The notes beneath the pieces are model-generated. The model was given only the letters and a program-made list of their open reading frames with translations. It was not told the DNA's origin and did no database searches. Both the position numbers and the translations under genes were made by a program. From Arthrobacter globiformis (GTDB lineage: Bacteria > Actinomycetota > Actinomycetes > Actinomycetales > Micrococcaceae), in NCBI RefSeq assembly GCF_003261175.1, contig NZ_QLNP01000089.1:62001-126000 (forward strand): a DNA stretch of 64,000 nt, read 5' to 3'. This document shows positions 12,634 to 35,286 of the stretch, one piece after another (positions within the stretch are counted from its first letter, which is position 1; the number at the start of each line of letters is the position of its first letter).

Positions 12634-15600
12634 GTGTCAACTTTGTTCGGCAAGCTGGGGCTGAGGAACCGCCGCAACAAGATCGTCACCGGAACCGTCT
12701 TTTCCGTTGCTGCTGCAGCACTGGTGGCCGGTGCCGTCATCTACCCGGGGTTCAAGACAACCGAGGTTGACCTTAACGACGGCGGCGTCTGGGTGGTCAG
12801 CAAGGCACGGAACGCCGTCGGCCGCCTCAACTACCCCTCGCGGGTCCTCGACGGTGCGGTGACCCCGGCCAGCACCACGTTCGATGTCCTGCAGAACGCC
12901 GGAAAGGTATTCGTCGACGACGAATCCGGCTCCACCCTGAACCAGGTGTCAGCCGCCAACATGAGGCTCGGCGGCGACAAGCAGCTTCCCGGCTCGGCGC
13001 AGGTGAGCTTCGGCGCCGACACCATCTCGGTCACCGACCCTGCCGCCGGGAAGATGTGGGCGATGTCCCCGTCCACGGTTAACGCCTTCGATGAGGAGTC
13101 CAGTGAGCCCGCCGTGGCGGGCTCCGAAGGGCTGGTGTCCGCCGTCGGTTCCGATGACCGGATCTATTCGGCGGATCCGAAAACGGGGCAGGTGACAGTG
13201 ACCACGGTGGACGCCGCGGGGGCAGCCACCGGCACCGAGTCCAGCACGTGGGACGGGCTGAAGGGCGCCGGGGACCTCCAGATCTCTGTCGTGGGGGACC
13301 AGGCTGTGGTCCTGGACGCAGCCGCCGGAAATCTGTTCCTGCCCGGCGGACGCGAGGTGCCGCTGGCTGACGCGCGCGAGGCGAAGCTCCAGCAGCCGGG
13401 CCCGGCGTCCGACACCGTGGCCGTGGCAACCGGCAAGGCGCTCCTCAGGCAGCCGCTGAACGGTGCCGCCGTGAAGGCCGTAACGTTCGGCGGCCAGGGG
13501 GTACCGGCGGCGCCGGTGCAGCTGGGCGGCTGCGTCCACGCCGCGTGGTCCGGAGCCAACAAGTATGTGCGGGACTGCGCGAATGCCGCGGACAACAAGA
13601 ACGTAGCGGTGCCCAAAGCCAGCGCCTCGCCCAGCTACGTTTTCCGGGTCAACCGGGACCTTGTGGTCCTGAATGACGTGAACTCGGGAAACGTGTGGCT
13701 GGTCAACCAGAACATGCAGCTGGTCAACAACTGGGACGACGTTGTCCCGCCCAAGAACCAGGCTGACGACCCGGATGAGGAATCGGCAGACGACAACACC
13801 ATCAACGTCCTGCCCGACCGCACCAAGCCGAACCGTCCCCCCGAAACGAAACCCGACGCCGTCGGCGTCCGGCCTGGCCGCACCACTGTCCTCAGCGTCC
13901 TCGACAACGACTCCGACCCCGACGGCGACGTCCTGACCGCCTCGCTCGGCGCAGAGGGGCCGCGGGCCGGCACCATCGAAAGCATCTACGGCGGGTCCGC
14001 CTTCCAGATCACGGTGCCGGCCGATGCCGCGCCCGGAACCGAGACCTTCGACTACACGGCTGCGGACGGCCGCGGGCTCTCGGCCGGCGGCAAGGTCAAC
14101 CTGAGCGTCGTGGGCCCGGACGAGAACCGGCCCCCGGCCTTCAAACGCGGGGACCCCACCACACTCCTCGTGGAGCAGGGCAAGACCGTCAGCCAGAACA
14201 TCCTCACCGACTGGGCCGATCCCGACGGCGACGACCTCGTCCTGATGTCGGCCACCGCCGACAATGAGCAGGACCAGGTCAAGGTCCGCCGTGACGGCCT
14301 GCTCACCTTCCAGGACTCCGGCGCCTCGGCCGGCAAGAAAAGCGTCAGCGTGTCCGTCTGGGACGGCCGCGCCACCACCACCGGCAAGGTGGTGGTCAAC
14401 GTCCAGCCGCCGGGCGCACTCGCTCCCGTGGTCAACGCCGACCACGTCACCGCCGTGGTGGGCCAGGACCTGGTCATCGCACCGCTGAAGAACGACGTCG
14501 ACCCCAACGGCGGTGCTCTGCGCCTCGCCCAGGTGGAGGCCGCCGGAGCCGCAGAGCTGGGCCCGGTCACCGACGGCGGCACCTTCACCTTCCGAAGCCG
14601 CACGCCGGGGCCGGTGTACCTGACATACCTGGCCAGCAACGGGCCGCAAAGCAGCCAGGGCCTCATCCGGGTTGATGTGGAATCGGGCAAGGACTCAGGA
14701 AATCCCGTCGCCGTCCACGACGTGGCGCTCCTTCCGGTGGGCGGCAGCGTCCTGCTGGACCCGCTGGCCAACGACTCGGACCCGTCCGGGGGGGTCCTGG
14801 TGCTGCAGTCCGTTGCGGTGCCGGAGAACGCCACGGCGTCGGTCAGCGTGATCGACCACAGCGTCCTGCGGATCACCGACATCGCCGGCATCAAGGACCC
14901 CTTCCTGTTCCGCTACACGATGTCCAACGGCAAATCCTCCGCGACGGGTAGCGTCTCGGTGGTGCCTGTTCCCGCCCCGGCTGTGGTGGAGGCGCCGCAG
15001 CCCAAGCCCGACGAGGTCAACGTCCGCGTCAACGACGTCGTGACCATCCCCGTCCTGGACAACGACACGCACCCCCAGGGCGAAAAGCTGACGGTTGACC
15101 CGGTCCTGCCGCAGGCCGTGCCGGCGGAGGACGGCAAGAGCTTCGTCTCCGAGAACACACTCCGTTTTATCGCCGGCAGCCAGCCCAAGACCGTGCGCGC
15201 CATCTACAACGCCGTGGACCCCCAGGGCCAGAAGAGCGCCGCCGCCGTCACCATCCACGTCCTGCCGCTGGAGGGTGCCGAAAACTCCCGGCCGCAGCCT
15301 AAGAACCTGACCGCCCGGGTGGTTGCTGGCGGTACGGTGCGCATCCCGGTGCCGCTGGACGGCATTGACCCGGACGGCGACTCCGTCCAACTGACGGGCA
15401 TCGACAGCACGCCCGGCATGGGCACCGCGACGGCGGGCAGCAGCTTCATCGACTTCGTGGCGGGCGGCAACGGTGCCGGGACCGATACGTTCCGCTACAA
15501 GGTGGTCGACCGGCAGGGCGCCGTGAACACCGGCACCGTCACCGTCGGCATCGCACCGCGCAGCGACACCAACCAGAAGCCCACGCCGGTGGACGACCAG

Positions 15601-34611: not shown

Positions 34612-35286
34612 ATGATCCGTCTTCCTCTTCTGCGCGGCGCGCTGGTGCCCGGAACTGCCGCTGCCATGCTGGCTTTCACGGTAATGACCGGAGCCGCCGG
34701 GGCTGCCCAGGCAGCCTGTGTGCCGGAGGGACAGTGCCCGGGGTCGCCCGCGCCTGTAACTCCGCCGTCGTCCGGTTCCCCGGCCCCGACGACGACGGCG
34801 ACTCCCGTCGCACCCGCACCCGCACCCGCACCCGCGCCCGCGCCGCCGCTGGCCCAGAAAGCGCCGGCACCTGCACCTGCGCCGGCACCCGCACAGCCGG
34901 TGCGACCGGCGGCGCCTGCGGCGCCGGTTCGGTCCGCGGCGCCTGTGGCGCGGATGGCTCCTGCACCGGTCCGACAGGTCCCCGCTCCCGCGGTCGTCCC
35001 GGCGGCGAATGCCGGTGTTGTGGTCGCGGTCCCCGCTGCAACACCGCCGGTGACCACCGCCTCCGCCAGCCCGGACCCGTCGTCGTCCGTGTCTTCTGCC
35101 GAGTCCAGCTGGACCAAACCGGTCGCCAGCCCCGCCGCCAGCGAGGCCGCCGCCGTCGTAGTCGCGGACAAGGGGTCCGGCCTCGGCATCTTCGGCCTGT
35201 TTGCCGTTATGGGCGGCGTCCTCCTGGTGGGTCTGGGCGGACTGGCCTTCGCGCTGTGGAGCCGGAACCGCCCCGGTCACTGGTAG
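34612..35286 (+). CDS. Secreted Ala/Pro-rich stalk protein with C-terminal membrane helix
   Basis: The 224-residue protein has a signal peptide (residues 1-35, ending AAQAA), two Cys (CVPEGQC), then about 110 residues of Ala/Pro/Val repeats (APAPAPAPAPAP and variants), a Ser/Thr stretch, and a C-terminal helix (GIFGLFAVMGGVLLVGLGGLAFALW) followed by SRNRPGHW. There is no LPXTG, so it is held by the helix. The long Pro/Ala stretch should span peptidoglycan. It lies 100 bases after the EssC-like gene on the same strand, with a purine-rich AAAGG site before ATG. It may be a member of the cluster or an independent gene. Confidence 0.75.
   Translation: MIRLPLLRGALVPGTAAAMLAFTVMTGAAGAAQAACVPEGQCPGSPAPVTPPSSGSPAPTTTATPVAPAPAPAPAPAPPLAQKAPAPAPAPAPAQPVRPAAPAAPVRSAAPVARMAPAPVRQVPAPAVVPAANAGVVVAVPAATPPVTTASASPDPSSSVSSAESSWTKPVASPAASEAAAVVVADKGSGLGIFGLFAVMGGVLLVGLGGLAFALWSRNRPGHW

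Follow-up and report, generated by a model that had tools for sequence, protein, structure and literature searches.

Gene content and organization of the cluster

We analysed a window of 64,000 nucleotides from Arthrobacter globiformis (contig NZ_QLNP01000089.1, positions 62,001 to 126,000) and looked specifically at the gene cluster at window positions 12634-35286, in which a PFNA-like gene set is joined to an EssC-like ATPase. From the open reading frame (ORF) list and family searches, the cluster was found to comprise eleven consecutive genes on the + strand (Table 1). A preliminary description of this DNA had reported about eleven same-strand genes coupled mostly by overlaps, and this was confirmed, as seven of the ten junctions overlap (five by 4 nt, two by more) and three are gaps of 65, 120 and 100 nt; these figures depend on three start codons (18813, 19744 and 25823) that were of our own choosing.

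Table 1. Genes of the cluster at 12634-35286, with window coordinates and the evidence for each assignment (TM, transmembrane; aa, amino acids; pLDDT, predicted local distance difference test)
Feature	Coordinates	Strand	Evidence
FN3/Ig-repeat giant protein, 2037 aa	12634-18747	+	Pfam Big_9 3.6e-80 (10 stretches), fn3 1.4e-31 (3 stretches)
MoxR AAA+ ATPase	18813-19778	+	AAA_3 8.8e-63
DUF58 protein, two TM segments	19744-21120	+	PF01882 1.3e-12
Membrane transglutaminase-like protein (TGM)	21117-23558	+	Transglut_core 3.5e-20; co-occurrence data
Zinc-ribbon and RDD membrane protein, C-terminal FHA-like part	23555-24970	+	RDD 7e-12; weak PDB FHA match
PP2C phosphatase	24967-25845	+	PP2C_2 1.5e-12; Stp1 model 1.5e-61, under its cut-off
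FHA protein, N-terminal domain undefined	25823-27559	+	FHA 4.7e-4, 21.0 bits against a cut-off of 20.7
Membrane Ser/Thr kinase, short outer part, putative TsdD-like role	27556-29217	+	Pkinase 2.8e-39; motifs and TM segment
FHA-fold protein, helical C-terminal domain	29338-30042	+	AlphaFold mean pLDDT 81; Foldseek top matches are FHA domains
EssC-like ATPase, 1490 aa	30039-34511	+	Ubiquitin-like ~1-92, FHA ~108-203, TM ~247-284, ATPase domains
Pro/Ala-rich protein, C-terminal TM, short tail	34612-35286	+	ORF reading; genus comparison

The PFNA operon of bifidobacteria encodes a kinase, an FN3 protein, an AAA/MoxR ATPase, a DUF58 protein and a TGM in the published order pkb2-fn3-aaa-duf58-tgm, some species also having PP2C and FHA genes (available parts of PMC8430577 and PMC6803598). 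All five core genes are present here, so that the earlier designation of the cluster as PFNA-like stands, but the published order is not followed: the kinase is not first and lies after tgm and three further genes. Added to the core are the PP2C phosphatase, three FHA proteins, the EssC-like ATPase and the Pro/Ala-rich protein. The kinase retains the motifs VAVK, HRDIKPAN and DFG intact and has a single TM segment. The FN3/Ig giant has an N-terminal TM segment at residues 17-35, and hydropathy shows no C-terminal one.

The cluster thus holds three separate FHA proteins besides the FHA domain inside EssC, in agreement with the gene inventory given earlier, and the support for them is uneven. 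The EssC domain is clearly detected (Pfam 6.5e-11) and resembles 3gqs, GarA, OdhI and TB39.8 in PDB searches, that of 25823-27559 stands barely above the Pfam cut-off, and that of the RDD protein is weak (best E 0.0056, PDB profile search). Sequence and profile searches with the 29338-30042 protein gave no convincing Pfam or PDB match; it is recognized as an FHA protein only by its AlphaFold model, which matches FHA structures in Foldseek. A C-terminal helix-turn-helix in this model is a guess, since Foldseek backed the FHA part alone.

In genus relatives the slot of the Pro/Ala-rich gene holds a Pro/Ala-rich gene, a WXG100 gene, both, or neither that we could find. A strict search placed the Pro/Ala-rich gene in at least 10 of 21 genus loci, a count which is too low because the same search missed the window's own copy.

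The EssC-like ATPase and its clade

The EssC-like protein matches TIGR03928 (EssC) at E 4e-158 and 528 bits, below the curated cut-off of 778. Walker A is intact in ATPase domains 1 and 2, and the third reads GPPGAGRT. Its best PDB matches were an EccC-type protein titled FtsK/SpoIIIE, YukB and EccC5. The claim that an EssC-type motor is joined to the PFNA-like cluster is upheld.

The closest described system that we found is the type VII secretion system T7SSd of Actinomycetota, listed with five components: it combines a WXG100 protein, an FHA-bearing EssC (TsdC) that keeps its phosphothreonine-binding residues, a membrane kinase (TsdD) and a giant Ig-like protein, and no ubiquitin-like protein was found for it according to Garrett et al. 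2024 (available part of PMC11217815). We placed the window's EssC in a tree of 72 EssC/EccC proteins, which were picked by hand and not at random. It falls in a clade of 35, read off by eye, whose support is 0.94 (1.00 once L099 is removed); Bacillota EssC, the second EssC of this genome and two T7SSd-like loci all lie outside it. Of the loci fetched (stretches mostly of ~20 kb), 26 of the 34 from the clade have at least three different PFNA-type genes, and 3 of the 37 others do.

The FHA residues that bind phosphothreonine, which we take to be G135, R136, S150, H153, N171 and G172, are all kept in 34 of the 35 clade members, the window's own included (6/6).

The second EssC-like ATPase of this genome (L010 7129-11469; G000:C74) stands alone by genes read as sugar-polymer synthesis and export, keeps the six FHA residues and gave no ubiquitin-like match. 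It was considered as the motor for the WXG100 family linked to the locus and rejected, because EssC genes of other types persist in four genomes that have no member of this family. Two genus genomes (L053 in G008, L054 in G010) have yet another EssC type, immediately followed by a kinase gene.

A ubiquitin-like domain at the EssC N-terminus

A profile built from the N-termini of 21 such ATPases (window residues 1-94) was compared with the PDB, where the top matches were ubiquitin-fold proteins, among them a redesigned ubiquitin at E 2.2e-7. Nine matches fell below E 0.01, six of them named ubiquitin or ubiquitin-like and three being chains of SAMP1, a ubiquitin-like modifier. When compared with a profile of YukD-type domains from EccD-like proteins (eleven domains, ten from genomes taken as mycobacterial and one from G030), the same profile scored a probability of 88.6% and E 2.7e-6, and Pfam YukD itself was found in three of the 21 N-termini.

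A ubiquitin-like profile of 18 rows, made with the T7SSd-like loci left out, matched all 35 clade members, 12 of which are rows of the profile, and none of six Bacillota EssC proteins tested. Among T7SSd-like loci, L171 and L172 matched weakly (E 0.004-0.006) and the N-terminus of L111 did not match. These comparisons give good support to a predicted ubiquitin-like domain fused to the EssC N-terminus in the window's clade. Such a fused domain is a candidate answer to the missing ubiquitin-like factor of T7SSd, although for T7SSd itself this is only suggested.

Neither an EccD nor a separate EsaB/YukD was found in this genome, as PF08817 (YukD/EccD-type) has no match anywhere in it. The same search over 20 genomes placed the only match of G244 inside its essC and found one separate copy in G030; four genomes taken as ESX-bearing have three to five matches each. 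We had also to consider that the motor belongs to a separate ESX locus (T7SSa). The search for the YukD/EccD-type domain, with EccB, EccE and MycP outside it, speaks against this as far as it goes, and a second EssC-like gene does exist.

WXG100 proteins and candidate cargo

Genome-wide searches with Pfam and with a family profile found no WXG100 gene inside the window, as had been stated before. What does not stand is the weight then placed on this as a notable feature: the missing WXG100 is an effect of the window, because some relatives have a WXG100 gene after essC (immediately after it in G020, G034 and G031). A WXG100 gene no more than 2 kb from essC is seen in 7 of the 21 genus genomes that have this EssC, and in 3 of 4 genomes carrying it from other families of the order; Cellulosimicrobium marinum (L227) also has the two side by side. 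In the window's own genome, for which the preliminary description had suggested a wider search, Pfam finds WXG100 in three places, all on other contigs. The nearest homologue is an 88-aa gene on another contig (L013) that is 53% identical to the G020 gene. S. aureus EsxA structures are among the matches of the family profile (E 1.6e-6).

Many matches of the WXG100 family sit in open frames of roughly 300-600 aa. We fetched fourteen loci with such WXG100-headed genes and scanned nine of the long proteins, all from relatives, together with the window genome's own. Among the nine, L298 carries a PGAP1/lipase-like part and L299 a calpain-like part; the remaining scanned proteins showed WXG100 alone, weak unrelated matches or nothing. 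In 13 of the 14 loci (the exception being L295) a small same-strand gene stands directly downstream of the WXG100-headed gene, and of eight such genes scanned seven had no match in Pfam and the eighth matched DUF6286 weakly. The arrangement suggests that the two genes may form effector/immunity pairs. In this genome a 383-aa WXG100-headed protein is followed by two small same-strand genes (L012 4242-6444; G000:C67) and is a candidate exported protein. Another WXG100 gene near groEL (L011 7339-7626; G000:C29) is not reached by the profile of the locus-linked family. At L044, essC is followed by two identical predicted WXG100 proteins in tandem (18597-18896 and 19247-19546) and then by a third WXG100 frame.

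Distribution and linkage across genomes

This EssC was found in 21 of 25 genus genomes (at least 81% identity). The WXG100 family is likewise in 21 (best E ≤3.8e-33; no match at 0.001 in the other four), and so is the PFNA-type TGM, for which the window's TGM served as single query over 35 chosen genomes and the other four gave only a weak paralogue or nothing. All three are jointly missing from the same four genomes, namely G010, G012, G019 and G022, in each of which a different EssC-like gene remains. The joint pattern gives Fisher p 7.9e-5, without correction for kinship. In an FtsK tree G012 groups with G022 (support 1.00) and G010 with G014 (0.91), while G019 is weakly placed (0.10), which puts the losses at two or more places.

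Over wider distances we used the family of 29338-30042 as FHA marker and counted as high-scoring EssC the rows down to 1114 bits, lower rows being dropped. Among 297 genomes of the order, 87 have a high-scoring EssC, 124 the marker and 73 both, the pair lying within 20 kb on the same strand in 61 of the 73 and within 1 kb in 48. In the phylum sample of 396 genomes, 71 have an EssC-type match, and of the 16 genomes with the marker 15 do; some of these matches are other EssC/EccC types. The concern that EssC is absent or unlinked in most relatives was thus mostly not borne out, given its presence in most genus genomes and its usual proximity to the marker in the order.

In a scan of named records that covered the best 80 of 576 matches and is not a census, at least twelve actinobacterial loci carry three or more PFNA-type genes beside essC, including those of Pseudarthrobacter, Cellulosimicrobium, Promicromonospora, Demequina, Nocardioides and Microbacterium. 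A thirteenth, from Peribacillus (L253), has MoxR, DUF58 and TGM genes ~6 kb from a Bacillota EssC. These best 80 hold no named Olsenella or Bifidobacterium species and two metagenome-assembled genome records of Bifidobacteriaceae (L252, L278), of which L278 has, besides a kinase pair and an FHA protein, a partial essC that falls inside the window's EssC clade.

Outside the cluster, a cyclase-like gene read from the sequence (11131-12375) precedes the eleven genes and ligA follows them, and two SAM-IV riboswitches lie on the + strand at 57211-57328 and 58790-58905, ~1.5 kb apart.

A putative kinase-controlled type VII secretion variant

Taken as a whole, the locus is in our view likely to be the core of an actinobacterial type VII secretion variant under control of a kinase and FHA domains, which keeps the earlier idea of a secretion machine read through FHA domains as the best guess. 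We read it as an undescribed variant, in parts closest to T7SSd. The preliminary interpretation is supported in this part, and it had named neither T7SSd nor the ubiquitin-like N-terminus. The EssC-like protein would be the membrane motor, exporting a small EsxA-like WXG100 protein and larger WXG100-headed effector candidates that are encoded elsewhere in the genome. Its ubiquitin-like N-terminus would take the place of what in other systems is a separate EsaB/YukD or a domain of EccD. The membrane kinase, the PP2C phosphatase and the FHA proteins probably switch the assembly or the activity of the motor, given that the EssC FHA domain keeps its phosphothreonine-binding residues; a phospho-switch is the simplest reading because a kinase with intact motifs, an FHA domain with binding residues and a phosphatase share one operon. 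The FN3/Ig giant probably forms a rod across the wall, with a putative TsdI-like role, and MoxR, DUF58 and TGM would probably help to assemble this rod. MoxR has been reported as a substrate of the bifidobacterial kinase (available part of PMC6803598).

The T7SSb of B. subtilis and S. aureus likewise has an EssC-type motor, a kinase-fold partner of the motor's FHA region and an EsxA-like WXG100 protein. Its partner in B. subtilis is YukC, a pseudokinase that contacts the FHA region of YukB without phosphorylation, and T7SSb differs from the window locus in this pseudokinase, in an FHA domain without the phosphothreonine-binding residues and in a separate EsaB/YukD (available part of PMC9600267). 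Two of the six Bacillota EssC proteins tested by us do keep the six FHA residues. By analogy, the kinase-FHA contact of the window locus may be a phospho-switched form of this phospho-independent one. Beyond what it has in common with T7SSd, T7SSe resembles the window locus in having a PPM phosphatase and a stand-alone FHA protein, but it is described from Bacillota only, with a separate ubiquitin-like protein and a second WXG100 protein (available part of PMC11217815).

The computation shows gene content, homology, co-occurrence and residue conservation, from which secretion, the phospho-switch, the rod and chaperone roles and effector function are inferred. Several observations weigh against the interpretation as a type VII variant. 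No WXG100 gene lies within 2 kb of essC in 14 of the 21 genus genomes with this EssC, the homologue in the window's own genome is unlinked to the locus, and G032 has EssC and the PFNA genes with no matching WXG100 at all. The co-occurrence rests on few independent losses. The idea that EssC always accompanies the PFNA genes fails, because 51 of the 124 marker genomes of the order have no high-scoring EssC and in 12 of the 73 that carry both the two genes are widely separated or on different contigs (assembly breaks may account for some of these cases); conversely, 14 of the 87 genomes with EssC have no marker. The FHA motif is conserved in the clade but not unique to it, as 15 of the 37 other EssC proteins also keep all six residues, this genome's second among them, and by our reading of the sequence the usual SxxH is missing from the 29338-30042 protein. 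For the ubiquitin-like domain, there was no chain named YukD or EccD among the 35 PDB matches of the N-terminal profile, Pfam finds no ubiquitin-like family in the N-terminus of the window's EssC, and the reverse search, with a profile of YukD-type domains, matched a few of the ATPases weakly (best L100, 1.7e-4) and the window's EssC not at all.

Alternative explanations

One alternative is that the locus is the already described T7SSd (Garrett et al. 2024) plus extra neighbour genes. The WXG100 protein, FHA-EssC with its phosphothreonine-binding residues, membrane Ser/Thr kinase and giant Ig-like surface protein are common to both systems, and G266 (2.2 Mb; L111) combines essC, a WXG100-like ORF (detected by our family profile only, not by Pfam), a kinase, an FN3 giant and the six FHA residues. 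Yet L111, like L171 and L172, lies outside the window's EssC clade, in a comparison that holds no named Olsenella or other named T7SSd sequence. The window locus adds MoxR, DUF58, TGM, PP2C and three FHA proteins to what T7SSd has, and fuses a ubiquitin-like domain to EssC in its clade; transglutaminase and fibronectin are not mentioned in the available text of PMC11217815. The same source describes TsdI as a giant Ig-like protein with a signal peptide and a C-terminal TM segment, and TsdH as a single-TM protein with a short cytoplasmic region. The giant of the window locus has its TM segment at the N-terminus. No clear equivalent of TsdH was identified here; the 34612-35286 protein has a C-terminal TM segment and a short tail. 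This explanation seems unlikely to us. L171 (G491) and L172 (G667) were at first taken as the published T7SSd, an assignment which was dropped for T7SSd-like only because all six FHA residues are missing from them, contrary to the description in PMC11217815.

A second alternative takes PFNA for a separate envelope-sensing module, with which EssC merely shares a neighbourhood or an operon. The many order genomes with the FHA marker and without EssC fit this, as do G491, where a PFNA set in the published order (L301 2740-15186) lies ~32 kb from the T7SSd-like locus (L171 3520-16327) in whose EssC none of the six FHA binding residues is left, and G667 and G546, where TGM is 32-33 kb from an essC. 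The bifidobacterial PFNA work proposes roles in host signals, and in their available texts PMC8430577 and PMC6803598 mention neither FtsK nor secretion. On the other hand, the four genus genomes that lack EssC lack TGM too and sit at two or more points of the tree, and PFNA-type genes crowd the loci of the clade far more often than those of other EssC proteins; relative to the PFNA operon, EssC is joined here and WXG100 in relatives. We hold this explanation to be improbable. That the ATPase moves DNA or serves cell division in the manner of FtsK is very improbable. It does match the FtsK/SpoIIIE family, but a separate FtsK-like gene has the best family match in this genome, its best structure matches are EccC-type (one titled FtsK/SpoIIIE) and YukB, and it is linked to WXG100.

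The open-access literature uses the term T7SSd in PMC11217815 only and holds nothing that combines PFNA with EssC; as judged from titles and abstract starts, nothing on the subject was found for type VII secretion with Arthrobacter and WXG100 or with Bifidobacterium and EssC.

Implications

Beyond the type VII variant proposed for this locus, it is possible, if doubtful, that the PFNA cluster, the bifidobacterial one included, originated as that half of a type VII machine which does the sensing and crosses the wall. In such a machine the contact of kinase, FHA and EssC would correspond, in phospho-switched form, to the T7SSb pseudokinase contact, and the ubiquitin-like factor would be built into the motor. 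If this is true, the FN3 protein, which has been described as binding cytokines, would be a secretion rod. The ubiquitin-like factor missing from T7SSd may hide in the ATPase itself, for which the evidence in T7SSd-like loci is weak or absent. The PFNA cluster gains a testable biochemical role, and as one operon holds a type VII motor, a kinase with intact catalytic motifs and an FHA domain keeping its phosphothreonine-binding residues, kinase control of the motor becomes directly testable in soil actinobacteria.

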